A DNA stretch of 64,000 nucleotides from Muribaculaceae bacterium. GTDB lineage: Bacteria; Bacteroidota; Bacteroidia; Bacteroidales; Muribaculaceae. Shown one piece after another: positions 2,965 to 36,143 of the stretch. Both the position numbers and the translations under genes were made by a program. The notes under the pieces are model-generated. The model had not been told where the DNA came from. It saw nothing but the letters and a program-made list of their open reading frames with translations, and did not search any database. The stretch spans positions 1-64,000 of the forward strand of contig JAIDTL010000135.1 of the NCBI GenBank assembly GCA_029060725.1, written 5' to 3'. How positions within the stretch are numbered: the stretch's first letter is position 1; every line of letters starts with the position of its first letter.

Positions 2965-3057
2965 CATAAAGCGCCTCTCCGAGGCTACTGAGCTTTTGTC
3001 TGAGAATGCCCCGGACTGAAGTCCGGGGTTTTAGCATAATAACAGCTCTCCGAGCTG
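2965..3057 (+). repeat. Family A three-hairpin intergenic repeat, copy 1
   Basis: Three stem-loops follow each other: GCCTC-tcc-GAGGC (2973-2985), CCCCGGACT-ga-AGTCCGGGG (3009-3028) followed by TTTT, and CAGCTC-tcc-GAGCTG (3043-3057). The same order and spacing recur at 9326, 11218 and 36052. The second hairpin with its T run could terminate plus-strand transcription. Confidence 0.9.
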
Positions 3058-3108
3058 AAAAGTCACCTACTGAAATCAAAACATAAAACAGATCACCATA
3101 AGAATGTC

Positions 3109-3627
3109 ATGAAGAAGATTAATTTTATATTGATTATGACGGTGCTTTTGGGGTTGGTGTATGCTTGCAAGCCTACTGAAAAAGGGTATAGGCAAGCATA
3201 CGAGGCAGCCAAAAGCAAGCGAGAGCAAGTGGATCCCGATGAAGAATTAATGACCGGAGGACATAAACTCCTCAACCAGGAATCGACTAATTGGAAAATC
3301 ATAGCCGGGGATTCCGTACAGGTGCAGCATAAATTTATAAAGCCTATCGAGGATGCAAAGTGGCCACAGGCAGGACCTTATCGACTTGCCGTAGCAAAGC
3401 TGAAGATGACCACCAATGCCAAGTCAATGCTTTCAGATCTGCAAAAGAAAGGGAAGCTGAATCCCGTAATAGCCACTGATGGGAAAGACACCTACTACAT
3501 CATTGCAGGAAGCGCAACGTATGCGGACTCGCTGGGGAATGTGCTTGCTACATTCAAGAAGGATAATCCTAAGTTTCAGTATATCGGGATGGAGAAAGAG
3601 AAGCCTTTGATTATTGTGGGAAGGTAA
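3109..3627 (+). CDS. Small lipoprotein with SPOR-like domain
   Basis: The 172-residue product has a lipoprotein signal peptide ending in LVYAC (Cys20). Residues from about 93 to the C-terminus (GPYRLAVAKLK through the TYYIIAGSATYADS segment) resemble a SPOR repeat, a fold that binds denuded septal peptidoglycan in other bacteria. I infer the domain from pattern alone, without a profile search. A cell-envelope or division role is therefore possible but not shown. The gene stands alone between a family A repeat and a 7-bp tandem array, and the adjacent genes are unrelated metabolic enzymes. Confidence 0.8.
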   Translation: MKKINFILIMTVLLGLVYACKPTEKGYRQAYEAAKSKREQVDPDEELMTGGHKLLNQESTNWKIIAGDSVQVQHKFIKPIEDAKWPQAGPYRLAVAKLKMTTNAKSMLSDLQKKGKLNPVIATDGKDTYYIIAGSATYADSLGNVLATFKKDNPKFQYIGMEKEKPLIIVGR

Positions 3628-3631
3628 CTAT

Positions 3632-3666
3632 TAATTATGAATTATTAATTATTAATTATAAACTAT
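3632..3666. repeat. 7-bp tandem array (TAATTAT type)
   Basis: Five consecutive heptamers (TAATTAT, GAATTAT, TAATTAT, TAATTAT, AAACTAT) begin four bases after the stop codon at 3627. The period is exact. Confidence 0.8.
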
Positions 3667-3679
3667 AAGTGGATTTGAA

Positions 3680-3718
3680 AAAAAATGAGCGGAAATATCA
3701 TTTTTCCGCTCATTTTTT
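3680..3718 (+). terminator. Intrinsic terminator, bidirectional form
   Basis: ATGAGCGGAAA (3685-3695) pairs perfectly with TTTCCGCTCAT (3703-3713), and flanking A and T runs extend the stem. The T run at 3713-3718 makes it a good terminator for the SPOR-like lipoprotein gene. Confidence 0.85.
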
Positions 3719-3720
3719 AT

Positions 3721-3728
3721 TATCTTTG
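3721..3728 (+). promoter_or_regulatory. Bacteroidetes -7 element (TATCTTTG), partial promoter
   Basis: TATCTTTG matches the TAnnTTTG consensus directly after the terminator and upstream of the dehydrogenase gene. No TTG lies at the expected 19-21 base distance because that stretch is the terminator stem, so only half of the promoter is supported. Confidence 0.5.
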
Positions 3729-3745
3729 CAAATTAATTAAGCAGG

Positions 3746-3780
3746 AATGCATAATTCATAATGCATAATGCATAATTGCC
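3746..3780. repeat. 7-bp tandem array (AATGCAT/AATTCAT type)
   Basis: The units AATGCAT, AATTCAT, AATGCAT, AATGCAT and AATTGCC run without a break in the presumed 5' leader of the gene at 3881. Each AATGCAT unit contains the palindrome ATGCAT. Confidence 0.85.
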
Positions 3781-3880
3781 AGTCATCTGAGATTCAGAGG
3801 ATACAACATTTATGATATTATACATTTATTTTTACCTACTTAGTTATTGAGAAATAAAAAACATAAGAATATATAAAAGA

Positions 3881-5077
3881 ATGGGAAAAGTCCTTATTAT
3901 CGGCGCCGGGGGCGTCGGCACAGTAGTGGCGCATAAGTGCGCTCAGCATCCGGAGGTCTTCAATGAAATTGTCATTGCCTCCCGTACTAAATCAAAATGC
4001 GACGCTCTTGCCGCCAAGATCGGAGCCCCAAACATCACAACAGACAGTGTCGATGCTGATGAAGTGGACCAGATCGTAGAACTCTTCAATCGTCATAAGC
4101 CCGACATCTGCATCAACGTGGCACTCCCCTACCAGGATCTCACTATCATGGAGGCATGTCTGAAGTGTGGTGTCAACTATCTTGACACAGCCAACTATGA
4201 GCCAAAGGATGAAGCTCATTTCGAATATAGCTGGCAGTGGGCATACCGCAAGAGATTTGAAGAGGCTGGGCTGACTGCAATCCTCGGATGCGGTTTCGAT
4301 CCGGGAGTGAGCGCCGTCTTCACAGCATACGCAGCCAAGCATCACTTTAAGGAGATGCACTATCTCGACATAGTAGACTGCAACGCCGGTAATCACGGGA
4401 AAGCTTTTGCCACTAACTTCAATCCGGAAATCAATATCCGCGAAATCACTCAGAAAGGGAAATACTGGGAAGATGGGAAATGGGTTGAAACAGAAAACCT
4501 TGAGATACACCAGCCCCTCACCTATCCGAATATCGGGGAGCGTGAAAGCTACCTTCTTTACCATGAAGAGCTTGAAAGTCTCGTTCAAAACTTCCCGACC
4601 ATAAAGCGTGCCCGCTTCTGGATGACCTTCGGACAGGAATATCTCACCCACCTTCGAGTGATCCAAGACATAGGCATGGCAAGAATAGACCCGGTGATGT
4701 ATAACGGTCAGGAAATCATTCCTATCCAATTCCTTAAGGCAGTGCTTCCTGATCCGGGTTCACTTGGAGAAAACTACACAGGCGAGACTTCAATCGGCTG
4801 TCGCATCCGAGGCATCGACAAACAGGGTAAGGAATCAACTTACTATATCTACAACAATTGCTCACACGAGGAAGCTTATAAAGAGACAGGTGCTCAGGCT
4901 GTAAGCTATACCACAGGCGTTCCGGCAATGGTAGGCGCGATGATGTTCCTTACCGGGAAATGGGTGATGCCGGGCGTGCATAATGTAGAAGAATTTGATC
5001 CGGACCCATTCTTGGAGACACTCGCCATCAACGGACTTCCTTGGCATGTGATCGTAGACGGCGATCTGGAGGTTTAA
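3881..5077 (+). CDS. Carboxynorspermidine dehydrogenase (saccharopine dehydrogenase family)
   Basis: The 398-residue protein should reductively condense a diamine with aspartate semialdehyde to carboxy(nor)spermidine, the first step of the alternative polyamine route used by Bacteroidetes. The N-terminus holds a Rossmann motif (VLIIGAGGVGTVVAHK). Further conserved blocks are NVALPYQDL, LDTANYE, GCGFDPGVSAVF and YTTGVPAMVGA, all typical of the carboxynorspermidine synthase branch rather than of lysine-pathway saccharopine dehydrogenases. Length agrees with the family. The partner decarboxylase (nspC type) is not in this window. The GH31 gene starts 34 bases downstream and may be co-transcribed, although the functions differ. 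Confidence 0.92.
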   Translation: MGKVLIIGAGGVGTVVAHKCAQHPEVFNEIVIASRTKSKCDALAAKIGAPNITTDSVDADEVDQIVELFNRHKPDICINVALPYQDLTIMEACLKCGVNYLDTANYEPKDEAHFEYSWQWAYRKRFEEAGLTAILGCGFDPGVSAVFTAYAAKHHFKEMHYLDIVDCNAGNHGKAFATNFNPEINIREITQKGKYWEDGKWVETENLEIHQPLTYPNIGERESYLLYHEELESLVQNFPTIKRARFWMTFGQEYLTHLRVIQDIGMARIDPVMYNGQEIIPIQFLKAVLPDPGSLGENYTGETSIGCRIRGIDKQGKESTYYIYNNCSHEEAYKETGAQAVSYTTGVPAMVGAMMFLTGKWVMPGVHNVEEFDPDPFLETLAINGLPWHVIVDGDLEV

Positions 5078-5111
5078 TTGCTAATAGTTTATTAAACAAT
5101 TTATTGAATAG

Positions 5112-7529
5112 ATGAAAAAAGCATCTATATGCATAGTGATGGCGGCTGCGGCAAGTGCTGTGGCCGCCTTCTCGGCTCATACAGCGAGTCAGGATACTGC
5201 CAATTACAGGGTAGTCACAGGGAAAGGTGTGATTGAAGTGATTCCTTTGAGCAATGACATATTCAGAGTGTGTGAACTTGGAAGTCTATCAGATCCTACT
5301 CCGGCTGCGACACAGGCTGCATCTTTTAAAGGAAAGAAGAGTGACATAGTCACATGGGCTACTGCAGACAGGTTTGTAATCGAGTCGCCTACCACGACCG
5401 TAAATGTAGACAAGAAGACGGGGAAAGTGACATTTTTTGACCAATATGGCAATATACTCCTGTCTGAGGCCAACGGGGTAAAAAAAGATGGAAAAGAACA
5501 GACGCTGACATTCCTGACCCCGGAAGGAGACAACTTCTACGGAGCAGGAGAGAGAGGACACAGTCTGACTCTAAATGGGAGCGACCTGACGATGTGGAAC
5601 CGTGCCAACTACGGATATACCGATGGGGATGAGAGAATATCTCAGACCAATATCAATATGCCGTATATAGTGAGCGACAATGGCTATGGACTTCTCATAG
5701 ACGACTATGCCAAGGCTTGGCTCACACTTGGAGAAGACACCATATCTTACCGCACAATATCAAAAAAGCCACTCAGCTACTACTTCATCAATGGCGACGG
5801 GACTCTTGCAGGAGCGACACATTCCTTCTCAGAACTTACGGGAAGACAACCGCTCCCTCCTTTCTGGACATTAGGATACATCACTTCAAAATATGGATAT
5901 CATAATCAGAATGAAGCATTAGGAGCCATTGACTCACTCAAGCAGAGAGATTATCCAGTAGACGGCATGATACTTGACCTCTATTGGTATGGAGTCGAGA
6001 CCGATATGGGACGCCTTGAATGGGACAAAAAGCAATGGCCCGACCATAAGAAGATGCTTGACAGCCTCAATGCCCAAGGCATACACGTAGTGCCTATCCA
6101 TCAGCCTTATATCAACAAGACAGGGGCGATGGACAACTATACTCTTCTTGAAAGCAAGGGACTCTTGACAAAGGATGCTGATGGAAATACAAAAGACGTC
6201 ACTACATGGGTTGGAGACGCCGGAATGTTTGACATCTCAAATCCAGAAACACGCCAATGGATGTGGAACAGGATGAAACCACTGACAGCTGATGGTCTTT
6301 CCGGATGGTGGGGCGATCTTGGAGAGCCGGAGGTGCATCCTCTTGAGATAGTGCATGCTAATGGGGAGACCGCAGAAGAATACCACAATGTATATGGCAA
6401 CGAATGGAGCAAGATGATCTATGACGGCCTCCGCAAGGACTTCCCCGAAATGAGACCGATGCTTATGATGCGCGGTGGAACTACAGGGCTGCAGCGATAT
6501 AGTGTATTCCCATGGACATCAGACGTATCTCGCTCATGGGGTGGACTTCAGGCACAAAATAAGCTTCTTCTCAGTTCAGGACTTTCAGGACTTGGATATA
6601 TGAGCAATGATGTGGGTGGCTTTGCGGTAGACCCTGCAAAGCCATACGATCCCGAACTCTATGTGCGTTGGATACAAGCAGGGACATTCTCACCAATATT
6701 GAGGACTCACGCGCAAGATCGTCCGGAGCCTTACCACTATCCCAACCAAGAGAATATCATAAAGAAATTCATAAGGATGCGATATGAATGGCTTCCTTAC
6801 AACTATACTCTTGCATACGAAAACTCTGCATACGGACTGCCTTTGATGAGGCCCCTCAACTTCCATGGAGATAATGAAGACAAGGATAAATATGCTGATA
6901 TCAGCGATGAATATCTTTGGGGACAGAGTGTATTAGTAGCTCCCGTCATGAAAAAAGGAGCTACAAGCAGGAAAGTTTTGTTTCCGGATGGAGAATGGAT
7001 AGACTGGAACAATCCAACGAAGAAATACCGTGGAGGCACGACTGCTGTGATCTCTGCTCCATTGCAAACCCTGCCACTCTTCGTCAGGGCAGGAAGCTTC
7101 ATACCACAGTATCCACAGAAGATAGAAAACACCTCCCAATACAACCCGACATTACTGACGGTCAAATATTTCCCAAGGAAGGAATGGAGTAATTATCAAC
7201 TTTATGATGACGACCGACTCTCTCCTACAGCTCTTGAAAATGGACAATATCAGTTGACTACATTCAGCGGGTCAAAACAAGGGAATGAGATATATGTGAA
7301 CATTGACTCGGAAGGAAGCTACAAGGGAATGCCGGAACTCAGGATGATAACCCTCGAGATCGTAGGAGTAGCCAATCCTAAGGGAGTGGAACTTGACGGA
7401 CAGAAACTTGAGCGGATGGTTTCGGCAAAGGCTATCAGGCAATATGGATACAGCTATGATGCCGCCAAGAAGACAATATCGGTAGTGTTCCCTTATACTT
7501 ATAAGAAGACTTCGGTCAAGGCGTATTGA
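5112..7529 (+). CDS. GH31 family alpha-glucosidase or alpha-xylosidase
   Basis: This 805-residue exported glycosidase has an N-terminal signal peptide with an Ala-rich hydrophobic core, then a GH31 N-terminal beta domain and a TIM barrel. The nucleophile is visible in GWWGDLGEPE (Asp at about 402) and the acid/base in PWTSDVSRSWG (Asp at about 471). DGMILDLYWYG is the conserved beta-strand motif of the family. The C-terminal region has the usual beta-sandwich domains. GH31 members cleave terminal alpha-glucosides or xylosides; the specificity cannot be chosen here. Together with the GH13 gene at 1029 it could finish alpha-glucan breakdown in the periplasm. A 9-bp tandem array follows the stop codon. 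Confidence 0.93.
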   Translation: MKKASICIVMAAAASAVAAFSAHTASQDTANYRVVTGKGVIEVIPLSNDIFRVCELGSLSDPTPAATQAASFKGKKSDIVTWATADRFVIESPTTTVNVDKKTGKVTFFDQYGNILLSEANGVKKDGKEQTLTFLTPEGDNFYGAGERGHSLTLNGSDLTMWNRANYGYTDGDERISQTNINMPYIVSDNGYGLLIDDYAKAWLTLGEDTISYRTISKKPLSYYFINGDGTLAGATHSFSELTGRQPLPPFWTLGYITSKYGYHNQNEALGAIDSLKQRDYPVDGMILDLYWYGVETDMGRLEWDKKQWPDHKKMLDSLNAQGIHVVPIHQPYINKTGAMDNYTLLESKGLLTKDADGNTKDVTTWVGDAGMFDISNPETRQWMWNRMKPLTADGLSGWWGDLGEPEVHPLEIVHANGETAEEYHNVYGNEWSKMIYDGLRKDFPEMRPMLMMRGGTTGLQRYSVFPWTSDVSRSWGGLQAQNKLLLSSGLSGLGYMSNDVGGFAVDPAKPYDPELYVRWIQAGTFSPILRTHAQDRPEPYHYPNQENIIKKFIRMRYEWLPYNYTLAYENSAYGLPLMRPLNFHGDNEDKDKYADISDEYLWGQSVLVAPVMKKGATSRKVLFPDGEWIDWNNPTKKYRGGTTAVISAPLQTLPLFVRAGSFIPQYPQKIENTSQYNPTLLTVKYFPRKEWSNYQLYDDDRLSPTALENGQYQLTTFSGSKQGNEIYVNIDSEGSYKGMPELRMITLEIVGVANPKGVELDGQKLERMVSAKAIRQYGYSYDAAKKTISVVFPYTYKKTSVKAY

Positions 7530-7541
7530 TATTAAGGGCTA

Positions 7542-7586
7542 ATTGGGCGGATTAGTCTAATTGGACGAATTAGTCAAATTAGTCAA
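7542..7586. repeat. 9-bp tandem array (ATTAGTCnn type)
   Basis: Five uninterrupted nonamers (ATTGGGCGG, ATTAGTCTA, ATTGGACGA, ATTAGTCAA, ATTAGTCAA) follow the GH31 gene, with a broken unit continuing to about 7609. The same unit recurs at 21482 and 53338. Confidence 0.85.
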
Positions 7587-7647
7587 GGCGGATTGGGCAT
7601 AATAGATTTCTTGGATAAAAAATAAATTAGAATAAGTATTGATTCAA

Positions 7648-9315: not shown

Positions 9316-9325
9316 ATTACAATAC

Positions 9326-9418
9326 CATAAAGCGCCTCTCCGAGGCTACTGGACTATTGATATTAACACCCCAGACTGAAGTCTGGGGTTTTTGCATGAT
9401 CATCAGGTCTCCGACCTG
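9326..9418 (+). repeat. Family A three-hairpin intergenic repeat, copy 2
   Basis: It has the same length (93 bp) and hairpin order as copy 1. Relative to copy 1, hairpin 2 is CCCCAGACT/AGTCTGGGG and hairpin 3 is CAGGTC/GACCTG; both sides of each stem changed together, which preserves pairing. TTTTT follows hairpin 2. Confidence 0.9.
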
Positions 9419-9427
9419 ATTAAAAAG

Positions 9428-9452: not shown

Positions 9453-9462
9453 TTTTGTTTTG

Positions 9463-9535: not shown

Positions 9536-9550
9536 TGGCGATTGTGAGTG

Positions 9551-9582: not shown

Positions 9583-9615
9583 TTTTTTTTGGAAAAAGGG
9601 GCTTATAAAGATTAA

Positions 9616-11118: not shown

Positions 11119-11217
11119 GAATCTAATGAATATTTTTGGAATTTTTCCACAAAAACTGCATAATATGCTTTTAAACATATTTTTCAAAGTAAAAAGGTTA
11201 TGCGAGCTATATCCTAC

Positions 11218-11307
11218 CATAAAGCGCCTCTCCGAGGCTGCACGAAGCTTTTGTACTTACCCCAGGCTATGCCTGGGGTTTCTTCATAATATCAGCTCTC
11301 CGAGCTG
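11218..11307 (+). repeat. Family A three-hairpin intergenic repeat, copy 3
   Basis: Hairpin 1 (GCCTC-tcc-GAGGC) and hairpin 3 (CAGCTC-tcc-GAGCTG) match copy 1. Hairpin 2 has a different sequence, CCCCAGGC-tat-GCCTGGGG, yet stays fully paired and is followed by TTTC. It lies between divergent genes, so terminating a neighbour cannot be its only reason for being here. Confidence 0.9.
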
Positions 11308-11446
11308 AATACTTGTGGATTATTTAGACTTTCGCTCTGCAAGCTGATAAATCAGCTACCAAAAGAAGAACTTCAAACTTAATACCTTAACAACAGGGGT
11401 ATTTTTGATGGTTTATCGGTTTAAAAGGGGGATTCAGGCTGTTGAA

Positions 11447-12378: not shown

Positions 12379-12379
12379 G

Positions 12380-15170: not shown

Positions 15171-15209
15171 GACACGCGTGGGCGCATGCGGAGCATGCTT
15201 TATTACGTT
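15171..15209 (+). repeat. Family B hairpin repeat, copy 1
   Basis: The core is GCATGC-GGA-GCATGC followed by TTTATTACGTT, preceded by GACACGCGTGGGC. The core recurs at 47874 (inverted), 47948, 55904 and 55966. Confidence 0.8.
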
Positions 15210-15228
15210 CAGGGAATTTGGAATGATA

Positions 15229-15290
15229 GGGGCTTTAAGGGCGCTAAGGGATTTAGGGGCTTAGGGGCGCTAAGGGATTTAGGGGATTTA
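15229..15290. repeat. 9-bp tandem array (RGGGnnnTA type)
   Basis: Seven units run from 15229: GGGGCTTTA, AGGGCGCTA, AGGGATTTA, GGGGCTTA (8 bp), GGGGCGCTA, AGGGATTTA, GGGGATTTA. One unit lacks a base and the rest keep a strict 9-bp period. A similar array follows the next gene at 16511. Confidence 0.85.
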
Positions 15291-15323
15291 TGAGAGATGA
15301 CTGCATTTTTAAGAGAATAATAG

Positions 15324-16502
15324 ATGAAAGAGATAATATTGAAGAGGGGGAAGGAGGAGAGTATCCTGCGGCATCACCCATGGGTATTCTCGGGAGCAAT
15401 AGCCAAACTTCCTGACGGATTGGAAGAGGGAGACCTGACAGTCGTGAAGGGGGCAGACGGCAGAGTGCTTGGTATTGGGCATTATCAGATAGGCTCAATC
15501 GCAGTGCGCATACTTGAATTTGGGACCGACACTTTGCCGGAAGATTTTTTCCATAAGAGACTGGAAGCAGCCTTCAGACTTCGCCAGACATTGGGACTGA
15601 TACGCAAAGACAACAACTGTTTCCGTCTCGTACATGGCGAAGGGGATTTCCTCCCCGGTCTTGTCATCGACATATATGGAGATACGGCTGTGCTCCAAGC
15701 TCATAGTCCGGGTATGCACTTCGAGCGCCGTCGCATAGCAGAGGCGCTTATAGCGCTTCCTGATGCAAGAATCCGCAATGTCTATTACAAGAGTGAAACT
15801 ACACTTCCTTACAAAGCAAACTTGGACCCGGAAAATGAGTATCTTGTAGGGGGCTATGAAGGGAATATTGCCCTTGAAAATGGATTGCAATTCAATATTG
15901 ACTGGCTAAGGGGACAAAAGACCGGATTCTTTGTAGACCAGAGAGAGAATCGGGCACTTCTTGAGAAATTTGCAAAAGGAAGGAAAGTGCTAAATATGTT
16001 CTGCTACACCGGTGGCTTTTCTGTCTATGCCATGCGCGGCGGAGCCAAGAGTGTAGTGTCGGTAGACTCTTCGGCAAAAGCTGCAGCCCTGACAGATGCA
16101 AACATAGAACTAAACTTCCCCGGAGACGATCGCCATAAGACATTTGCAGTGGATGCCTTCAAATATCTGAACGATATGCCTGACAAGGAATACGACCTGA
16201 TCATCCTTGACCCTCCGGCATTTGCAAAGCATCGCTCTGCACTGAAAAATGGTCTGATAGGCTATAGGAAACTGAACACAAAGGCCTTCGAGAAGATAAA
16301 GTCGGGAGGTGTGCTTTTCACATTCTCTTGCTCACAGGTAGTGACTCGAGAGGCATTCCGCCTTGCAGTATTCAGTGCAGCGGCAAAATCAGGAAGGAAA
16401 GTGCGGATCTTACACCAATTGACTCAACCTGCCGACCACCCTATCGACATTTCACATCCTGAAGGAGAGTATCTGAAGGGGTTGGTGCTATATGTGGAAT
16501 AG
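15324..16502 (+). CDS. RlmI-like 23S rRNA (cytosine-C5) methyltransferase
   Basis: The 392-residue protein has an N-terminal PUA-like domain (about 1-75, including HHPWVFSGAIAKL) and a C-terminal class I SAM-dependent methyltransferase domain. The SAM motif is VLNMFCYTGGFSVYAMRGGA, and LIILDPPAFAKHRSAL is the catalytic DPPxF-type loop. VLFTFSCSQVV supplies the conserved cysteine of m5C methylases. The architecture is that of RlmI (YccW), which modifies C1962 of 23S rRNA in E. coli; the exact target in this organism is inferred. The gene is bracketed by two 9-bp tandem arrays of the same type, and the next gene starts 74 bases downstream. Confidence 0.9.
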   Translation: MKEIILKRGKEESILRHHPWVFSGAIAKLPDGLEEGDLTVVKGADGRVLGIGHYQIGSIAVRILEFGTDTLPEDFFHKRLEAAFRLRQTLGLIRKDNNCFRLVHGEGDFLPGLVIDIYGDTAVLQAHSPGMHFERRRIAEALIALPDARIRNVYYKSETTLPYKANLDPENEYLVGGYEGNIALENGLQFNIDWLRGQKTGFFVDQRENRALLEKFAKGRKVLNMFCYTGGFSVYAMRGGAKSVVSVDSSAKAAALTDANIELNFPGDDRHKTFAVDAFKYLNDMPDKEYDLIILDPPAFAKHRSALKNGLIGYRKLNTKAFEKIKSGGVLFTFSCSQVVTREAFRLAVFSAAAKSGRKVRILHQLTQPADHPIDISHPEGEYLKGLVLYVE

Positions 16503-16510
16503 AAGGAATA

Positions 16511-16555
16511 AGGGCTTTAAGGGCCTTAGGGGCCTTAAGGGCTTTAAGGACATTA
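16511..16555. repeat. 9-bp tandem array (RGGGCnTTA type)
   Basis: Five units (AGGGCTTTA, AGGGCCTTA, GGGGCCTTA, AGGGCTTTA, AGGACATTA) start nine bases after the stop of the methyltransferase gene and keep an exact 9-bp period. Confidence 0.85.
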
Positions 16556-16576
16556 AGGATAAATAATCGAAAAAAA

Positions 16577-19082: not shown

Positions 19083-21479
19083 ATGAGACTTAACATCAGA
19101 ACAGCACTCCTTGCTACATTCGGAGCCGTGATGACACTATTCATGGTACAGGATATCGAAGCAGCGAATGCAAAGACAACGCCGGGTAAGGAATCCGGAA
19201 AATTTGAGGCAGGAAACGGGACGTTTCTTCTAAATGGAGAACCCTTCGTGGTGAAAGCGGCTGAGCTGCATTATCCGCGTATTCCAAAGCCTTATTGGGA
19301 TCAGCGCATCAAACTTTGCAAGGCTCTTGGGATGAATACCATCTGCCTCTATACATTCTGGAACTCTCATGAGCCGAAGGAAGATCAATTTGACTTTACC
19401 GGGCAGAATGACCTCAGGGAGTTTATCAAGCTATGCGAAGAGAATGACATGAAAGTCATCTTACGCCCCGGTCCATACGTGTGTGCAGAATGGGAAATGG
19501 GTGGTCTTCCTTGGTGGCTCTTAAAGAAAAAAGATATCAAACTTCGTGAGAATGACCCATATTTTCTGGAACGCGTAGATAAGTTCCAGAAAGCAGTTGC
19601 CGATCAAGTAGGCGACCTTACGATAGCCGACGGCGGCCCAATCATCATGGTGCAAGTGGAAAATGAATATGGCAGCTATGGCAAAAACAAGCCCTACGTA
19701 GCAAACATCCGCGATATGCTCCGCAAGAATTTCGGCGATAATGTGACACTTTTCCAATGTGACTGGTCGTCAAACTTCACAGACAATGGTCTCGATGATC
19801 TCATTTGGACGATGAACTTCGGGACCGGAGCCAACATCGATGAGCAATTCAAGAAATTGAAGGAACTTCGTCCGGAAAGCCCGTTGATGTGTTCTGAATT
19901 CTGGAGCGGATGGTTTGACAAATGGGGAGCCAACCATGAGACACGACCATCTGCCGACATGATAGCAGGAATCGACGAAATGCTGTCAAAAGGGATTTCA
20001 TTCAGTCTTTACATGACACACGGAGGCACAAACTGGGGTCACTGGGCTGGAGCCAACTCACCGGGTTTTGATCCTGACGTGACTTCTTACGATTATGACG
20101 CTCCAATCAGTGAAAGCGGACAAATCACGCCTAAGTATATGGACCTGCGCAATACACTTGCCAAATACTACGACGGCAAAAAGCTTCCTGCTATACCGGC
20201 TACCGTCAAACCAATCGAAATAAAGGAATTCCAATTTGAAAGTGTAGCGCCGCTCTTTACCAACCTTCCGGAAGGGAAGAAGACGCGTGATATCAAGACA
20301 ATGGAAGAGTTTGACCAAGGATTTGGCAGCATCATCTATCAGACCACTCTGCCGGAATTGAAAAATGGTGGAGTGTTGACGATCAATGAACCTCACGACT
20401 ATGTCCAGGTATTTGTCGACGACAAATATGTAGGCACCCTCGACAGGCGTATGGGTGAGAAAAACATCCAATTGCCGATTTGCCCTAAGAATGCCAAACT
20501 CGATATTCTTGTTGAAGCCATGGGGCGTATCAATTTCGGACGCGCCATAAAAGACTTCAAAGGAATCACCGACAATGTGACAGTGACTGAAGAACGCAAC
20601 GGGTATTCATTCACCTGCGACTTGAAGAACTGGACAGTATTCAATCTTGAAGACACTGAAGAATTCTATGAGTCGATGGAATTCCTACCTATAGGAGCAT
20701 TTACTCCGTCAGACGACGGACGTCTGCCTCGCGGCGTCTACAAAGGGACATTCAATGTCAGCAAACCCTCTGACACCTTCCTTGATTTTGAGACTTGGGG
20801 CAAAGGGCTTGTCTATGTCAATGGTCATCCTCTCGGACGCATCTGGGACATAGGTCCTCAACAGACACTATATATGCCCGGATGCTGGCTTAAGAAGGGA
20901 GAAAATGAGATAATGGTGTTTGATATTCTTGGACCAAAAGAAGCGAAATCTGCAGGTCTCAAGGAGCCAAAACTCGACAATCTTCATGTAAACAAACCTA
21001 CCACACATCGCGCTGAAGGAGAAAATTTAGATCTGAGCGGAGAGCAACCGGTATTGACCGGAACATTCCAACCCGGCAACGGATGGCAAGAATTTAAATT
21101 TGAGGCTCCGGTGGAAGGACGTTGGCTATGCCTTGAGGCTGTCAATTCTATCGATGGAAAGGATGTGGCATCAATAGCAGAGTTATATGTGCTCGATCAG
21201 GATGGCAACCGCTTGTCGCGTGAGCCATGGACGGTATATTATGCCGACAGCGAAGACACCAAACGTAAGAACTGCGCGGCCAACAAAGTTTTTGACCTTC
21301 AGGAATCTACTTATTGGAGCACTTCGAAGGGGGTAGCATTCCCACATTATCTTGTGATAGACCTTGGAGGAGACAAGAAGATATCCGGCATACAGTATCT
21401 GCCTCGCATGGAAAGCAATGTGCCCGGGGGAATAAAAGATTTTAAGGTGTATTTGAGTGGGGAGGCTTTTAAGAAGTAA
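19083..21479 (+). CDS. GH35 beta-galactosidase with C-terminal carbohydrate-binding-like domain
   Basis: This exported 798-residue glycosidase should release terminal beta-galactose. The signal peptide covers about 28 residues. The catalytic barrel has the GH35 start ELHYPRIPKPYWDQRIK, the acid/base in QVENEYGSYG (Glu195) and the nucleophile in MCSEFWSGWFD (Glu272). Beta-sandwich domains typical of GH35 follow. The last 140 residues (from about 655, GNGWQEFKFEAPVEGRWLCL to DLGGDKKISGIQYLPRM) look like an F5/8 type C discoidin fold, which binds sugars. There is no SusC/SusD pair or sensor nearby, so the enzyme is an orphan. A long 9-bp tandem array starts three bases after the stop codon. Confidence 0.94.
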   Translation: MRLNIRTALLATFGAVMTLFMVQDIEAANAKTTPGKESGKFEAGNGTFLLNGEPFVVKAAELHYPRIPKPYWDQRIKLCKALGMNTICLYTFWNSHEPKEDQFDFTGQNDLREFIKLCEENDMKVILRPGPYVCAEWEMGGLPWWLLKKKDIKLRENDPYFLERVDKFQKAVADQVGDLTIADGGPIIMVQVENEYGSYGKNKPYVANIRDMLRKNFGDNVTLFQCDWSSNFTDNGLDDLIWTMNFGTGANIDEQFKKLKELRPESPLMCSEFWSGWFDKWGANHETRPSADMIAGIDEMLSKGISFSLYMTHGGTNWGHWAGANSPGFDPDVTSYDYDAPISESGQITPKYMDLRNTLAKYYDGKKLPAIPATVKPIEIKEFQFESVAPLFTNLPEGKKTRDIKTMEEFDQGFGSIIYQTTLPELKNGGVLTINEPHDYVQVFVDDKYVGTLDRRMGEKNIQLPICPKNAKLDILVEAMGRINFGRAIKDFKGITDNVTVTEERNGYSFTCDLKNWTVFNLEDTEEFYESMEFLPIGAFTPSDDGRLPRGVYKGTFNVSKPSDTFLDFETWGKGLVYVNGHPLGRIWDIGPQQTLYMPGCWLKKGENEIMVFDILGPKEAKSAGLKEPKLDNLHVNKPTTHRAEGENLDLSGEQPVLTGTFQPGNGWQEFKFEAPVEGRWLCLEAVNSIDGKDVASIAELYVLDQDGNRLSREPWTVYYADSEDTKRKNCAANKVFDLQESTYWSTSKGVAFPHYLVIDLGGDKKISGIQYLPRMESNVPGGIKDFKVYLSGEAFKK

Positions 21480-21481
21480 TG

Positions 21482-21643
21482 ATTAGTCTAATTAGTCTAA
21501 TTAGTCTTATTAGTCTTATTAGTCAGATTAGTCTTATTAGTCAGTTTAGTCTTATTAGTCTAATTAGTCGTATTAGTCCAATTAGTCGTATTAGTCCAAT
21601 TAGTCGTATTAGTCCAATTAGCCGGATTAGGCTAATTGGACTA
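21482..21643. repeat. Large 9-bp tandem array, 18 units of ATTAGTCnn
   Basis: Eighteen nonamers in a row fill the space between the GH35 gene and dprA, which converge here. Fourteen match ATTAGTC plus two variable bases exactly, and the others carry a single or few substitutions. In units 10-15 the variable pair alternates GT/CA, giving an 18-bp higher-order repeat, so the array has grown by duplication of pairs. No insertion breaks the phase. Confidence 0.92.
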
Positions 21644-21663
21644 ATTTGATTTATAAGAAATAT

Positions 21664-22791
21664 TCAGTATTGGATTAGGGAGAAGCGGCTGCCCGGGAGA
21701 CGCTGGACTATTCCGTCGAATTCCATTTCGCCGAGAGAAGCCATAAGGTCGTGGATGGGGATTCCGGTGCGCTCGCGCAGCGCATCGACAGGCATTGGCT
21801 CTTGAATGAATCGCAATGCGTCGTAAATGAGCTTTTCATTGCCTTTCAGCTCCGGGAAGAGATCTCGCTGCTTGGGAGCGGCCTTGACGGTCCTCGGTTG
21901 CCAACCGAGCATCGACATCATCTCTACGGCAGACCCAGCCATCATCGCCTTTTGGCTACGAATAAGCCGATTGCAGCCGGCACTCATCTCATCTCCAATG
22001 CGTCCGGGAAGGGCAAACAGCTCTCTGCCGTATGATGAAGCCACGGCAGCCGTAGACATAGCTCCACCTTTTTCGGCTGATTCAGCTACAATCACAGCGT
22101 CGGTCATAGTAGCTACTATACGATTTCTTTCAAGGAAACGACTTCTGTAGGGAGTCACACCGGATGGATATTCAGAAATAATTGCACCGCCCGCCGCGAT
22201 GATACGACGCGCGAGATCCCTGTTTGCGGCAGGATAAATTGTATTGAGTCCATGAGCTACCACAGCTACAGTAGGCAATGAAGCCTTTAGAGCAGCTTCA
22301 TGAGCAGCAGAATCGATGCCAAGCGCAAGACCACTTACAATCACCATTTCGGGGAAATAAACCGCCATATCTTCGACAAGAGACCCTACATATCTGACTC
22401 CGTATGATGTAGAATGTCGAGTTCCCACTATGCTCATCATAGTCTCAGCATCAAGATTGGCATTTCCAAGTCGATAGAGGGTCAGAGGAGCACGGTCAAT
22501 GTCGGTCAGTCGGTAGGGATAGTCATCATCAGTAAGAGAAAACGACATTATTCCATGACGCTGCATAAACTCCGACTCTTTTTTAGCTTTGAAAAGAGCT
22601 TCATCACGCACCATCTTGTCAAGGAATGGAGCGAATTTTATATTCAATCTTGCTGAAAGTTCCAGTTGCGATGCAGTGAAAAATTCTTCAACAGTGACCC
22701 CACATTTCTCCATTTGGCGCACAAAAGAAGCATCCGTGCCGGGCACGAATGAAAGAGCCATACCGAGAAATCTATGATTATCCACCGTCAA
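21664..22791 (-). CDS. dprA: DNA-processing protein DprA
   Basis: DprA loads RecA on single-stranded DNA during natural transformation. The Rossmann-like domain shows MSIVGTRHSTSYG, IVSGLALGIDSAAHEAAL, GLNTIYPAANRDLA and RNRIVATMTDAVIVAESAEK. The last 60 residues form a winged-helix-like C-terminal domain. The full-length start is a TTG at 22791 that overlaps the TGA of the thioesterase gene by four bases, suggesting translational coupling; the next ATG, ten codons later, is the alternative. It is the last gene of a four-gene minus-strand cluster. Bacteroidales carry dprA and comF widely even though competence is rarely demonstrated. Confidence 0.93.
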   Translation of the reverse strand: MTVDNHRFLGMALSFVPGTDASFVRQMEKCGVTVEEFFTASQLELSARLNIKFAPFLDKMVRDEALFKAKKESEFMQRHGIMSFSLTDDDYPYRLTDIDRAPLTLYRLGNANLDAETMMSIVGTRHSTSYGVRYVGSLVEDMAVYFPEMVIVSGLALGIDSAAHEAALKASLPTVAVVAHGLNTIYPAANRDLARRIIAAGGAIISEYPSGVTPYRSRFLERNRIVATMTDAVIVAESAEKGGAMSTAAVASSYGRELFALPGRIGDEMSAGCNRLIRSQKAMMAGSAVEMMSMLGWQPRTVKAAPKQRDLFPELKGNEKLIYDALRFIQEPMPVDALRERTGIPIHDLMASLGEMEFDGIVQRLPGSRFSLIQY

Positions 22792-29400: not shown

Positions 29401-29987
29401 TTGTTAGAAGTCTTGTCGCCCTGAAGCACACCGTGGAGCACCATACCGCCAATCAGCTGCACATCATAGTGCACCATATCCCACTTCATTTCATTGCCAC
29501 CGGCAATCCAAGAAGTCTTGTAGATGGCCTTGTCGCCATCAATGCTGATGAAGTCTTTTCCTTTAGCGGCGAGTTCACGGTCGAACTCATCGGCAGTCAC
29601 CTCGATGGTTTCGTTGTTGGCAAATCTGCGAGCCGTCTCCTTAATGACAGCAAAGACTTCCGGAAGAGCTTCGTCAAGCTTGTGGGCATACATCTTGTAC
29701 ATGTCTTCCTTCAAGGTGTCGATTTCTTTCCAATATGGTTCGCGCTTGTCGAATTCCATGGTTTCGATCTGAGCGCGAATGTCAGCCATCTTGTCCTTGT
29801 AGGTCTTAGCCTCGCCGCGAATGTCATCGCGGATTTTGTTGATTCTATCGCGGAGTTCATCATTAGAGATCTCGCGGATCTGCTCGGAAATCGGATTGAT
29901 TTCCTTCTGAAGACGATTCCAGAGCGGACGCACAGCGCGTTCGCTTTGGTCGCCGAAAATTGATTTAAGTATGTTGCTGAATCCCAT
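26439..29987 (-). CDS. secA: Preprotein translocase ATPase SecA
   Basis: SecA drives secretory proteins through SecYEG. The 1182-residue length is typical for Bacteroidetes, which carry large insertions. Visible landmarks are the Walker A block [31 protein letters not shown], the Walker B region [43 protein letters not shown] and [15 protein letters not shown]. The C-terminal linker is an Ala/Gln/His-rich low-complexity stretch ([19 protein letters not shown]), and the protein ends in an intact zinc-binding SEC-C motif ([17 protein letters not shown]), which binds SecB or the ribosome. Two small GYF proteins follow with overlapping stop/start codons. An exact -7 element lies about 40 bases upstream. 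Confidence 0.97.
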
Positions 29988-30025
29988 TTTTAATGAGAAT
30001 TAAGTTTATATTCTGTTTTAAAACG

Positions 30026-30033
30026 CAAAGATA
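30026..30033 (-). promoter_or_regulatory. Bacteroidetes -7 element (TATCTTTG) upstream of secA
   Basis: TATCTTTG on the minus strand fits the consensus. The -33 position at the 20-base spacing reads ATG rather than TTG because a 7-bp repeat array occupies it, so array size could affect promoter strength. The leader would be about 30-35 nt. Confidence 0.55.
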
Positions 30034-30041
30034 GTAAAATT

Positions 30042-30121
30042 AATGCATAATTCATAATGCATAATGCAAAATTTTCATCAAAATGCATAATTCATAATGC
30101 ATAATGCATAATTTTCATCAA
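30042..30121. repeat. Two 40-bp direct repeats built from 7-bp units, upstream of secA
   Basis: Each 40-bp unit is four heptamers (AATGCAT, AATTCAT, AATGCAT, AATGCAW) plus AATTTTCATCAA. The two copies at 30042-30081 and 30082-30121 differ at one position. This shows that a whole small array with its flank was duplicated. Confidence 0.9.
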
Positions 30122-30161
30122 AACGCTTTTTACAAGCAATTTTCTTCAGATGTCAAGCCCG

Positions 30162-30192
30162 ATTATGAATTATGAATTATGAATTATGCATT
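30162..30192. repeat. 7-bp tandem array (ATTATGA type)
   Basis: Units ATTATGA, ATTATGA, ATTATGA and ATTATGC end two bases before the stop codon of the minus-strand gene at 30195. Confidence 0.8.
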
Positions 30193-30194
30193 GA

Positions 30195-31772: not shown

Positions 31773-32995
31773 TTCAATTTCTTTTTCTTTTTAATTCTTA
31801 ATACACCATTTACGTAGAGAATGGTATTTGAAAGCGGGAGTATGCTCCACAGCATAGGCCAAACGGCATCATTTATGACCTGGATAGCAAAGGATGGATG
31901 CCATACACCCAAAAGGATGGTCAGAGACAACGCCATCAATATATTGTAGATTGCCATTATATTCAAAGACAATCGCCATTTTTTCATCCATATTCCAATC
32001 GCAACAATGAATTGCAACGGATTGAGCCAGAAGATAAGCATATTGGGCGAGGTAGCCTCATGCTCTGAAAAAAAGACAAGGAATGTGATGACAATTCCCG
32101 CCAACCCGGCTACAAAGAAATAGATGAATATCCACCATTTCCAAATCTTCTCTTTGAAGATATAAGCAAACATCGTGCCAAGACTGAGGATAAGCATCAA
32201 TATCCCGACCGCCATTGGGGTTTTCCACCAAGGAGTAGGAGGAAGAGTGGCGTCATAATATCCCGGGAATATGATATTGGTCTCTTTTACCAATGGCTGA
32301 CTCCCTATCGAGCCTTCAGCCAATTTAGCCTGAAGCACGGGGGGAGCAAACGTATCCTCATCTTTTGCCATGCGATAATCGAGTCCACTTCCCAAAGCAA
32401 GGTCAATACCGAATTGATACCAAGGATAATTTCTATGGAAGTGGCTCATTTCCTCTCTAAATGTAGGATAATAGAGAGTGTCAGGAAGAGAAATCTTCCT
32501 TTCAGTGGCTTGTTTGATACGTTTCCAAGGACGAGTGGCACAGTTGTCGCGCACATAGTTGTACCTATATACACGGTTTTCCGGGAGCGACTCGATCTGA
32601 AGAAGTTCTCTTAGTTTGCGGGCTTCTTCCTGAGTCAGAGATAGCACCTGCTCAGTGACCTTCGACCCGCGCCTGACATAGGCAGGCATAAATCTATTGA
32701 ATTGGTATCCATAGACCATATAGTCGGTCTCACCTTTACAAAATCTATAGATAAAGTTGGGCGAGGTGAAGTCAAAGATACCGTAGTTCCAGACGGAGTC
32801 CATCTTTTCGCTCCTGATTCGGATGGCAGCATGGCCACAGAGTTCGTAGACGTCCGGACCAGGGTCACATGTCAGTATACTGACAATAAGGTCTTCCCTA
32901 TCGTCGACAGGGAAGACTGAATCGGTCCTCTCCTGAGCTATCACGCTACAAGAGAGGTAAATAAGCATTATAAATATCCGGATAAATCTGTTCAT
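31769..32995 (-). CDS. DUF4105 (Lnb N-terminal domain-like) membrane protein
   Basis: The 408-residue protein has a signal peptide, then a periplasmic domain (about 30-190) with VYELCGHAAIRIRS, VWNYGIFDFTSPNFIYRF and YNYVRDNCATRPW. These Cys, His and Asn-Cys positions are the DUF4105 pattern, a papain-like fold that Pfam-type resources link to lipoprotein N-acyltransferase Lnb. The C-terminal half has five or six membrane helices. If the link holds here, the enzyme would N-acylate lipoproteins, filling the gap left by absence of Lnt; that is inference. The gene lies between asnS (3 bp away) and the pseudophosphatase gene (overlapping). Confidence 0.82.
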   Translation of the reverse strand: MNRFIRIFIMLIYLSCSVIAQERTDSVFPVDDREDLIVSILTCDPGPDVYELCGHAAIRIRSEKMDSVWNYGIFDFTSPNFIYRFCKGETDYMVYGYQFNRFMPAYVRRGSKVTEQVLSLTQEEARKLRELLQIESLPENRVYRYNYVRDNCATRPWKRIKQATERKISLPDTLYYPTFREEMSHFHRNYPWYQFGIDLALGSGLDYRMAKDEDTFAPPVLQAKLAEGSIGSQPLVKETNIIFPGYYDATLPPTPWWKTPMAVGILMLILSLGTMFAYIFKEKIWKWWIFIYFFVAGLAGIVITFLVFFSEHEATSPNMLIFWLNPLQFIVAIGIWMKKWRLSLNIMAIYNILMALSLTILLGVWHPSFAIQVINDAVWPMLWSILPLSNTILYVNGVLRIKKKKKLK

Positions 32996-32998
32996 TCT

Positions 32999-34396
32999 TT
33001 AGAATTCGCAGTTGTTCGGATATCGAGGGAACGGGATAACGTCGCGGATGTTCTGCATGCCGGTGACAAAAAGAATCAGGCGCTCGAAACCGAGACCGAA
33101 TCCGGAATGCGGCACTGTACCATACTTGCGAGTGTCAAGATACCAGTCCATTCCTTCAAGACCTTGGTCTGCCATACGCTGCTTCAGTTTGTCGTAGTTT
33201 TCTTCACGCTGGCTGCCGCCGATGATCTCACCAATCTTCGGGAAGAGCACATCCATAGCTCGCACTGTCTTGCCATCGTCGTTGAGCTTCATATAGAAAG
33301 CCTTGATTTCCTTCGGATAGTCAGTAAGGATGACAGGCTTCTTGAAGTGCTGCTCCACGAGGTAGCGTTCATGCTCGGAAGCAAGGTCTACGCCCCAATA
33401 TACCGGGAACTCAAACTTCTTTCCACTCTCTTCAAGAATCTTGATACCCTCAGTGTAAGGGAGGCGAACGAAGTCGTTGTTGATGACAAAGTTAAGGCGG
33501 TCGATGAGTTCTTTGTCGAAGTGCTCATTAAGAAACTCGATGTCGTCGCGACAGTTCTCAAGAGCATACGTGATACAATATTTTACGAACTCCTCAGCGA
33601 GGTCCATATTGTCTTCTATCTCATAGAAAGCCATTTCAGGTTCGATCATCCAGAATTCGGAGAGGTGGCGCGGAGTGTTTGAGTTTTCAGCACGGAATGT
33701 CGGGCCGAAAGTATAGATGCAGCCAAGTGCAGTGGCACCGAGTTCCCCCTCGAGCTGGCCGCTAACAGTCAGAGAAGCCATCTTTCCGAAGAAATCCTGA
33801 GAATAGTCTACTTTTCCATCCTTTGTCATCGGGAGCTGGTCGAGAGGCATAGTGGTCACTTGAAATTGAGCGCCTGCCCCTTCACAGTCAGATGCCGTGA
33901 TGAGAGGAGTATGGAAATAATAGAATCCTTTGTCATTGAAGAATTTGTGGATAGCGTATGCCAACGCGTGGCGAATACGCAGCACAGCGCCGAAAGTATT
34001 GGTGCGAGGACGCAGATGTGCTATCTCGCGCAGGAACTCAAGAGAGTGTCCTTTCTTCTGAAGAGGATAGTCAGCTACGCTTGCAGTGCCATAGATCTCA
34101 AGTTCGTCAGCTTGCACTTCGATAGCCTGACCCTTACCCTGAGAGGCGACAGCCTGCCCCTGGACATGGATTGAAGCACCGGTAGTGACATCTTTGAGAG
34201 CATCTTCAGGAATCTTGGCAAAGTCCACCACAATCTGGAGATTCTTAATAGAAGAACCGTCGTTGAGGGCAATAAAAGCCACATTTTTATTTCCACGGCG
34301 GGTACGCACCCACCCTTTGACATCCACTTCCTTACCGATAAAATTTTCCGGGTCGGCGAGAAGTGACTTGACGGTCGTACGTTTTATATCCTTCAT
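32999..34396 (-). CDS. asnS: Asparaginyl-tRNA synthetase
   Basis: This class II synthetase charges tRNA-Asn. The N-terminal OB fold ([19 protein letters not shown]) is followed by the catalytic domain with motif 2 ([21 protein letters not shown]) in variant form and motif 3 ([21 protein letters not shown]). The ending [16 protein letters not shown] is typical for AsnS rather than AspS. The 465-residue length matches. It lies 20 bases after the RluB-like gene and three bases before the DUF4105 gene in one operon. Confidence 0.97.
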
Positions 34397-34416
34397 CTTA
34401 TAGTTTGGTTTGTGAA

Positions 34417-35841
34417 TTATTCAAATGAACCCATGCGCAGGAAGTTGACTTCTTCCTGAGTGAGATATCTCCAACGTCCGCGCGGGAGATTTTTCTTAGT
34501 CAATCCGGCAAAATATACGCGGTCGAGCTTAGTGACGCGATAGCCAAGGTGCTCAAAAATACGGCGTACGATACGATTGCGTCCGCTGTGGATCTCGATT
34601 CCAGCCTGGTTGCGGTCGGTATCGTTAGCGTAAGAGATAGCATCAGCATGTATTTCGCCATCCTCGAGTTCGATGCCGTCGGCTATACGCTGCATATCAT
34701 CCTCCGAGATATCCTTGTCTGTCCAAACATGATAAATTTTCTTCTTGACAAATTTAGGATGAGTAAGCTTTGAAGCCAATTCTCCATCGTTGGTCAGCAG
34801 TAGCACGCCGGTAGTGTTTCGGTCAAGACGCCCTACAGGGTAAATTCTCTCGCGGCAAGCACCTTTGACAACGTCCATGACAGTCATTCGTCCGTTAGGA
34901 TCGTCGCTTGTAGTGACGCAATCCTTTGGCTTATTGAGGAGCACGTAGCACTTGCGTTCAGGAGTGACCACCTTATCTTCGCATTTCACTACGTCATCGC
35001 GATTGATTTTTGTACCGAGCTCAGTGACCACGACATCATTGACAGTGACGAGTCCGGCTGCAATCTTTTCGTCGGCTTCGCGACGTGAGCAGATGCCGGA
35101 ATTTGCCATAAACTTGTTGAGACGGATCGGTTCGTTTGGATCTATATCATCGATAATGTAGTCGATCTGACGCGGACGTGGAATGAATTTCATGCCCGGT
35201 TTCTGATTCTTCTGGAATCCGCCTTGACGCTTTTGGAATCCGCCCTGCTGATTGCCTTGACGGTTGTAGCCACCCTGACGATTCTGATAGCCACCACCTT
35301 GCTGATTGCCTTGACGGTTGAATCCGTTGACCTGGCGTTTCTGGTAGCCACCCTGCTGGTTGCCCTGGCGATTGTTGTAACCACCCTGGCGGTTGAAGTT
35401 GTTCTGGCGGTTCTGGTTGCCGTATGTATTGATGCGATTATAGCCGTTGTTGCGGTTTTGCTGATATCCGGTCTGAGTCTGCTGATATGAATTTTCTGAA
35501 GAAGTGGATTGCGCTTCAGAGTCAGGATTATTATATCTCTTGAATCCATCCTCAGAAGAAGAGCCGTTCTGGTAAGGACGGTTGTAAGGAGTCTGACGCT
35601 GCTGATAAGATGGACGCGCCTGACGGTTATATCCAGACTCTTCCCTATTATGGTAGGAATTGGAATAACTGTTCTGGTAGGTCGGGCGTGGGCGTTGTTG
35701 GTAACCACGCTGAGGGAATTCGGGTCTTTCGGTACCTTTATAAGGTCTTGACTGGAAATACTGTTCTTTGTTTTCCGTGTTATCAGAAGAAGTAGTAGGC
35801 AGTGCCCCGATTCTTGGTCTCTTGGGTTTCTTCTCTTCCAT
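34417..35841 (-). CDS. RluB-like pseudouridine synthase with long Gln/Asn/Arg-rich N-terminal region
   Basis: The C-terminal 245 residues are an S4 domain ([19 protein letters not shown]) plus an RluB/RsuA-type pseudouridine synthase domain with the catalytic Asp in [16 protein letters not shown]. It should modify 23S rRNA. The first 220 or so residues are a low-complexity tract of repeated Asn-Arg-Gln-Gly-Gly and Gln-Gly-Gly-Tyr motifs, strongly basic and aromatic, like RNA-binding RGG or prion-like regions. I start at ATG 35841; the longer frame only adds MRQIKILI. A perfect promoter lies about 110 bases upstream, and asnS, DUF4105 and the pseudophosphatase follow in the operon. Confidence 0.92.
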
Positions 35842-35950
35842 TATTAAAATTTTAATTTGGCGCATGACATCGCTGCCATTTTCAAAGTCGCCGGTTAATT
35901 TTGTGTTGCTTTATTTATGATGTGTTTTTTAACTATTGCAATTGCGATTG

Positions 35951-35982
35951 CAAAAGTACAATTTTTTTTCGAGATATGCAAA
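35951..35982 (-). promoter_or_regulatory. Promoter of the rluB-like/asnS operon (TTTG-N20-TACTTTTG)
   Basis: TTTG (35982-35979), 20 bases and TACTTTTG (35958-35951) match the consensus exactly on the minus strand. The leader is about 100 nt and contains a TTGCAATCGCAATTGCAA-like palindromic stretch. Confidence 0.85.
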
Positions 35983-35990
35983 CAAAAGGC

Positions 35991-36031
35991 AAAAAATAAG
36001 TGACGCTGGAATGGTGCGTCACTTATTTTTT
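35991..36031 (-). terminator. Bidirectional intrinsic terminator
   Basis: AAATAAGTGACG pairs with CGTCACTTATTT around an 11-base loop, with A/T runs extending the stem to about 15 bp. It lies downstream of the Omp28-like gene on the minus strand and shields the next promoter. Confidence 0.88.
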
Positions 36032-36051
36032 ATCATTAATCAAAACAATAT

Positions 36052-36143
36052 CATAAAGCGCCTCTCCGAGGCTACTGAGCTTTTGCCGGAGACACCCCGG
36101 ACTGAAGTCCGGGGTTTTGGCATAATATCAGCTCTCCGAGCTG
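36052..36143 (+). repeat. Family A three-hairpin intergenic repeat, copy 4
   Basis: It is nearly identical to copy 1, including AATATCATAAAGCGCC at the left edge, CCCCGGACT/AGTCCGGGG and CAGCTC/GAGCTG. Both flanking genes are on the minus strand, so here the hairpin-2 T run points against transcription. A further partly related stretch continues to about 36185. Confidence 0.9.

Follow-up and report, generated by a model that had tools for sequence, protein, structure and literature searches.

The three-hairpin module and its copies

We analysed a window of 64,000 nucleotides (positions 1 to 64,000, forward strand, of contig JAIDTL010000135.1; G000:C41:1-64000) from the draft genome of a Muribaculaceae bacterium (GCA_029060725.1; 3.43 Mb, 170 contigs, 86.6% complete), hereafter the source genome. 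The window carries four copies of an intergenic module of about 95 nt, in which two outer hairpins (hairpins 1 and 3) stand in direct orientation around a GC-rich hairpin 2 followed by T's; the module is a composite of two hairpins like those of repetitive extragenic palindromes (REPs) around a terminator-like hairpin. We consider it very probable that the module belongs, as a REP-like and non-autonomous unit of mobile DNA, to an IS200-type Y1 (HUH) transposase with the signature Y---Q--HH, a protein encoded in relatives between outward-facing modules. The features in the window are as follows.

2962 to 3060, plus strand: copy 1, with the TATCATAA motif; hairpin 1 at 2973-2985 (GCCTC-TCC-GAGGC), hairpin 2 at 3009-3028 followed by a T-run, hairpin 3 at 3043-3057 (CAGCTC-TCC-GAGCTG)
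3082 to 3099, minus strand: degenerate right end (3 mismatches) of a longer form bounded by terminal inverted repeats (TIRs), probably the carrier of copy 1
9323 to 9421, plus strand: copy 2, core only; hairpin 1 at 9334-9346, hairpin 2 at 9369-9388, hairpin 3 at 9404-9418 (CAGGTC-TCC-GACCTG)
11215 to 11310, plus strand: copy 3, core only; hairpin 1 at 11226-11238, hairpin 2 at 11260-11278, hairpin 3 at 11293-11307
36049 to 36146, plus strand: copy 4; hairpin 1 at 36060-36072, hairpin 2 at 36095-36114, hairpin 3 at 36129-36143

An initial annotation had placed four copies of 90-93 bp with these hairpins in the window, and all are present where it had put them (93, 93, 90, and 92 bp, in order); their neighbours are also as it had described, namely co-directional for copy 1, convergent (a tRNA) for copy 2, divergent for copy 3, and antisense for copy 4. 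A covariance model, built partly from the four window copies themselves, recovered exactly these four in the window (E 5e-22 to 2e-17), with the next-ranked match at E 0.057. When folded as single-stranded DNA, each window copy exceeded dinucleotide shuffles in stability by 4.0 to 5.6 standard deviations. TCC is the usual loop of both outer hairpins in an alignment of 74 copies from several genomes. Simple patterns placed a CATAA-like 5′ motif before hairpin 1 in 69 and before hairpin 3 in 65 of these 74 rows, many of which had been fetched by a pattern holding CATAA; among 45 source-genome copies fetched by similarity, CATAA precedes hairpin 1 in 40. A REP-type GT[AG]G tetranucleotide was sought at the hairpin foot, and no GTAG foot was seen by eye in the module copies.

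The stems covary, as the initial annotation had proposed from the window copies, with compensatory changes in hairpins 2 and 3 both among source-genome copies and across several genomes. In the 45 source-genome copies, two pairs of hairpin 2 switch between G-C and A-U and one pair of hairpin 3 switches between C-G and G-C; a further pair at the outer end of hairpin 3 occurs in every Watson-Crick form (G-C in 13, U-A in 12, A-U in 10, and C-G in 3 copies) and is unpaired in 7 of the 45. Double-sided changes affect 10 of 21 pairs in the 74-copy alignment, as compared to 5.5 in shuffles, and the extra compensatory changes on which the initial annotation had made the mobile-element reading depend are there, 132 double-changed cells being counted against 32.7 in shuffles. 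Hairpin 1 is near-invariant in the alignment sets; this says little, because hairpin 1 formed part of the query or pattern by which most rows had been retrieved.

Copies of the module are numerous in the source genome, where one copy used as a DNA query gave 45 matches and the covariance model gave at least 99 matches at E 0.01 or better (150 of 897 candidates scored); of 34 distinct copies with an open reading frame (ORF) on both sides, 33 lie outside ORFs of 100 aa or more. The hairpin-1 pattern was found in 5 of 61 genomes searched, the source genome included, all five belonging to the same genus, whereas the covariance model, with 16 candidates scored per genome, found the module at 1e-3 in at least 55 of 247 same-family genomes (source genome included) and in 19 of 30 genera. 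Named contigs with the hairpin-1 pattern, among the matches listed, come mostly from Muribaculaceae or Porphyromonadaceae metagenome assemblies. Searches of plasmids and phages (Blast with one long-form copy) and of IMG/VR (exact pattern) gave no match. Many modules in JAMPDC010000001.1 (L112, L160, and L170) are present as inverted pairs. Tandem amplification was also observed at G000:C7:64246-64572, L017, L019, and L023, in the form of three head-to-tail modules or of minisatellite-like repeats of the right arm adjoining single modules.

A transposase gene between outward-facing modules

Inverted module clusters in the family scan led to loci in which an ORF of about 146 aa lies between outward-facing modules. 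The first eight of these ORFs align well with one another, and all eight match both Pfam Y1_Tnp (PF01797) and NCBIfam NF033573 (transpos_IS200; 72.8 bits in the first member, cut-off 55); the REP-type model NF047646 gave 28.8 bits in the first member against a cut-off of 80 (best E 9.4e-7). A profile alignment to ISHp608 TnpA (E 5.5e-12) placed the HUH histidines and Y-x3-Q in register, and the Y---Q--HH signature was found at 30 of the 30 best transposase loci. Judged by its sequence, the module-bracketed protein is an IS200-type Y1 (HUH) transposase and not a REP-associated tyrosine transposase (RAYT). The initial annotation had suggested a REP-like element moved by a Y1 transposase of the RAYT type encoded elsewhere, and had advised looking for a Y1 gene flanked by the same hairpins; such a gene exists in relatives, so the first half of the suggestion stands, but the enzyme is not of the type named and the source genome did not yield it.

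Transposases of this kind were found in 116 of 247 genomes in the family scan (1e-15) and in 25 of 111 genomes in the genus scan (1e-20). With module matches counted at E 0.1 or better, modules flank the gene on both sides at 20 of the 30 best loci, on one side at five, and on neither at five (L304, L305, L312, L317, and L320). The search had been seeded at 7 of the 30; among the 23 non-seed loci, which were found by protein homology, the corresponding counts are 13, five, and five. The bracketing modules are divergent and lie within about 200 bp of the transposase gene, and similarity between one flank and the inverse of the other exceeds the 95% background level at 27 of the 30 best loci, often also at those without a model match. 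Relatives in addition carry modules away from the transposase gene, as solo modules, as inverted pairs, and in tandem. Module and transposase also co-occur, the transposase being present in 41 of 55 module-positive versus 75 of 192 module-negative genomes (Fisher p 3e-6). Non-flanking modules furthermore resemble the transposase flanks of their own genome: from 17 hand-picked rows in six genomes (L290 and L256 being one module), 13 of 16 distinct modules were most similar to the own-genome flanks when compared with the flanks of ten genomes, and 11 of 14 were so once two modules less than 3 kb from the gene were removed; shared genome ancestry could contribute to this matching.

As a control, the covariance model matched only L182 and L195 among 33 other PF01797 loci, weak loci included (33 of the 34 Y1 loci in hand, L198 being left out). 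L182 (G063), which is module-flanked on both sides, also has the Y---Q--HH signature. L195 (G012) has a full module downstream, at a distance of about 400 bp, and on its upstream side a degenerate one (E 0.025), an association treated as possibly due to chance; L198 was rejected as a partner, its ORF not being transposase-like by eye. Flank similarity above the 95% level was seen at only 2 of 16 RAYT or other Y1 loci (L009 and L011, both with their own REPs). Beyond the family, 15 of 26 loci in other families of the order exceed this level (26 of 30 loci having flanks long enough, and the coordinates of the control genes being approximate), and three-hairpin layouts are readable by eye at L365, L368, and L372. 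Other order-level genes of the same kind, resembling subclass 1.2 of the Y1 transposases as discussed below (L371, L392, L394, and others), have inverted flanking repeats of different build, e.g., AATAAGGT-rich ones, which may be further cognate repeats.

The source genome has four PF01797 Y1 genes of its own, three with other hairpins nearby and a fourth with none listed by the hairpin scan; they were rejected as partners of the module, as no hairpins of its family occur within the flanks fetched. Several Y1 genes of the genus and its kin (L009, L011, L182, L183, and L185) have their own flanking hairpins with TCC, TTCC, or TCCC loops, those at L009 and L011 carrying A-rich 5′ motifs at the foot instead of GTAG.

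Orientation, insertion sites, and competing explanations

All four window copies share one orientation, as the initial annotation had pointed out, and this is part of a genome-wide pattern. Same-contig pairs in the source genome share orientation in 114 of 123 cases when uncollapsed, in 38 of 44 locus pairs after collapsing within 3 kb (permutation p 1e-4), and in 16 of 20 after 10-kb collapsing (p 0.014). Among 36 of the 46 module-bearing contigs, module orientation agrees with noncoding GC skew in 31, with overall skew in 28, with third-position skew in 28, and with gene strand in 14. Twenty stretches from three further genomes, which are not fully independent because several share a contig, gave agreement in 18 for noncoding skew, 16 for third-position skew, and eight for gene strand; L467 ends just before its module (at 162352), and the adjacent skew was used for it. 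Third-position skew may be partly tied to gene strand. The modules are thus biased in orientation, and the bias follows GC skew rather than gene strand, a pattern that single-strand transposition coupled to replication would be expected to leave. Leading strands tend to be rich in G, and the bias may reflect activity on the lagging strand. Orientation of IS200/IS605 members recapitulates the direction of replication, according to a review (PMC5371812).

The sites of copies 1, 2, and 3 were compared with syntenic relatives. None of the eight relatives aligned at the copy 1 site has a module, one of six has it at the copy 2 site (G062), and one of five has it, in long form, at the copy 3 site (G066), the four without it including one aligned on the left side only (G063); over all 15 syntenic stretches the covariance model found just those two modules. 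The relatives share about 70-90% identity, too little for exact ends to be read at these sites. Other hairpin families occupy the corresponding intergenic sites in relatives.

In the mobile-unit reading, the module would act in the form of single-stranded DNA. The transposase would bind the outer hairpins on such DNA, reading the CAYAA-like 5′ motif as a guide, and would cut and rejoin that strand at replication forks, so that new copies would arise in one orientation relative to replication; the central hairpin probably stops transcription leaving the unit. Mobility of the module is suggested by bracketing, distribution, and orientation. It is possible, and we put it forward tentatively, that the module of about 95 nt is in itself a complete miniature IS200-type transposon, with hairpin 1 as left end, hairpin 3 as right end, and only a terminator as cargo, moved in trans by the transposase encoded between two outward copies. 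If so, few self-contained single-strand transposons would be smaller, and the module would connect insertion sequences with REPs.

Several observations weigh against the explanation as a mobile unit of this transposase. No such gene was found in the source genome in either the family scan (E 1e-15) or the genus scan (E 1e-20), and the best-assembled module bearer, G243, has no PF01797 match; a gene of 440 bp that lies between high-copy repeats may drop out of draft assemblies. The signature occurs at only two PF01797 loci (L182 and L186) among ten module-bearing or related genomes, and L186 (G062) has it with no module match. Of 30 loci from the genus scan, 25, mostly more distant ones, were searched for modules (three others are counted among the best 30, and L410 and L413 were left out): five have modules on both sides (L396, L399, L400, L405, and L420), about five on one side (L395, L397, L398, L418, and, loosely, L419), and 15 have none. 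Inverted flank similarity is nevertheless above the 95% level in 20 of these 25, although none exceeds the highest background pair, a level probably set by the near-identical L305 and L416; few model matches combined with similar inverted flanks suggest that the repeat diverged with the transposase or that some of these genes use other repeats. With a crude pattern, the 5′ motif was detected before hairpin 1 in only 23, and before hairpin 3 in only 28, of 37 modules that flank a transposase. Further pair types in the 74-copy alignment numbered 22, a value reached by 63 of 500 shuffles. Orientation of rplB, used as a marker of strand polarity, fits a G-rich leading strand in half of the stretches (6 of 12), neither the source genome nor G267 having yielded an rplB gene. 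No clean empty site with base-exact ends was found among the loci in hand, the rows obtained being self matches, tandem copies, long forms, or similar clusters. Finally, 17 of 111 cores from several genomes lie inside a TIR-bounded unit with both ends (median 170 bp; TA on both sides in 7 of 17), and a DDE transposase may have moved those source-lineage copies that sit in such a unit.

This last point raises the possibility that the module is a mere passenger of a miniature inverted-repeat transposable element (MITE) whose ends show TA and the TIRs GGGTGTTCAGTT...AACTGAACACCC and which owes its movement to a DDE transposase. Arms or TIR ends accompany 32 of 50 source-genome copies, six of them with both TIRs, but 18 of the 50 have no arms and the core appears better conserved than the arms. 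Just 2 of the 30 transposase loci have TIR-like sites with two mismatches or fewer, and these TIRs are therefore absent from most bracketing modules elsewhere in the family. A longer insertion sequence with the same TIRs, sought by TIR pattern in the source genome, was not found: all 13 matches (0 or 1 mismatch) fall at module copies and none marks a longer element. We regard the passenger explanation as very unlikely. The module might instead be a functional RNA or a terminator of transcription, retained because it regulates host genes and multiplied by chance duplication, which would account for the terminator form of hairpin 2 with its T-run, for the RNA-style covariation, and for the location of nearly all copies outside longer ORFs. 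Gene context disagrees with the ordinary terminator that the initial annotation had offered as an alternative, however: among the 34 source-genome copies with an ORF on both sides (tRNA genes left out), the upstream ORF is co-directional for 16 and opposite for 18, and because only 16 follow a co-directional gene the modules are not ordinary terminators. Such a role also sits poorly with three window sites mostly unshared with relatives, with a module that brackets a transposase gene, and with an orientation that tracks GC skew instead of gene strand; Rfam at gathering score found only a tRNA in the window. Host regulation is in our judgment very unlikely to explain the module.

Least probable of all, and very nearly dismissed by us, is that the modules are accidental neighbours of the transposase, belonging to the many kinds of palindromic repeat that accumulate at intergenic hot spots, also next to Y1 genes. 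The other hairpin families at the same intergenic sites in relatives would fit such accumulation, and L195 may be a case of it; against it stand the fixed divergent geometry close to the gene, the 31 of 33 other Y1 loci without a module match, and the within-genome matching of modules to transposase flanks. A REP-like unit moved by the bracketed Y1 transposase remains our preferred explanation.

Other repeats were observed in the same DNA. Three other REP-like families, e.g., ACGTAATAAA-GCATGC-TCC-GCATGC, lean opposite to GC skew, agreeing with it in 6 of 30, 2 of 11, and 0 of 14 cases; these families were examined at window positions 15184, 47875, 47961, and 55917 and in source-genome stretches L421-L460. 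The same family-by-family comparison gave agreement in 54 of 66 cases for the module (family A) and in 4 of 9, with no lean, for a fourth REP-like family. The window also contains 9-bp tandem arrays of ATTAGTCTA-like and TTAAGGGCT-like units (21464-21672, 53293-53420, 7533-7594, 15226-15297, and 16499-16562) and many AATTATGAATTATGA arrays.

Relation to known Y1 transposases and their repeats

IS200/IS605 elements have end hairpins in direct orientation on one strand, and their tnpA gene lies inside one left-end/right-end unit with no inverted ends. The module differs in that its direct hairpins enclose only a terminator-like hairpin, the gene lying outside, between inverted modules. Shared with IS608 and ISDra2 is an HUH/Y1 transposase, and the replication-tied orientation described for IS200/IS605 members (PMC5371812) may have a counterpart in the skew-linked orientation of the module; IS200/IS605 members are described as lacking terminal inverted repeats (PMC2817692). 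We know of no three-hairpin layout in the palindrome-associated transposable elements (PATEs) or in other MITEs of IS200/IS605 elements. By description alone, these resemble the module in being non-autonomous derivatives of Y1 elements (PMC7290912, PMC3119063).

The nearest known arrangement is that of REP-rayt-REP units in inverted orientation (PMC2817692). Like REPs, REPINs, and bacterial interspersed mosaic elements (BIMEs), the module is a high-copy intergenic palindrome with compensatory stem changes (PMC2817692, PMC6006769, PMC3116915), and as with REPs the cognate Y1 gene lies between two inverted copies with inverted pairs elsewhere, the bracketing here being seen in relatives only. 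It is unlike them in its length of about 95 nt, its three hairpins, two of them REP-like and in direct orientation, its CAYAA-like 5′ motif where REPs have GT[AG]G, and its transposase, which is IS200-type with Y---Q--HH where RAYTs have YxxNP.

Quentin et al. (2018) divided Y1 transposases into classes, subclass 1.2 comprising Y---Q--HH proteins of Cyanobacteria and Bacteroidetes (PMC6006769). The proteins described here agree with that subclass in signature, in length (about 146 aa, against about 148 aa), and in phylum. Its table, however, gives DH[IV]H and WQ for the HUH and W motifs where eight aligned members here have NH[VIL]H and WA, and we therefore call our proteins subclass-1.2-like. 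Subclass 1.2 is entered in that study as having no REPs, generally no terminal IS200 structures, and no shared insertion-sequence properties, whereas the proteins here are bracketed by what appears to be a cognate repeat; our literature search found no later work tying REPs to subclass 1.2 proteins. Class 3 of the same scheme offers another parallel, a Y-Q type transposase flanked by atypical hairpins that can reach high copy number, but with Y----Q spacing, in other phyla, and with a CnGA foot (PMC6006769). On sequence grounds, the module is probably the cognate repeat of an IS200-type transposase so far described without repeats, and an apparently orphan branch of Y1 transposases would gain its repeat in a gut bacterial family. 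Through the orientation bias, what looks like single-strand transposition coupled to replication can be followed from sequence alone, and a small protein with defined hairpins makes a testable pair. Combining traits of insertion sequences with traits of REPs, the system could reveal how the one gives rise to the other.

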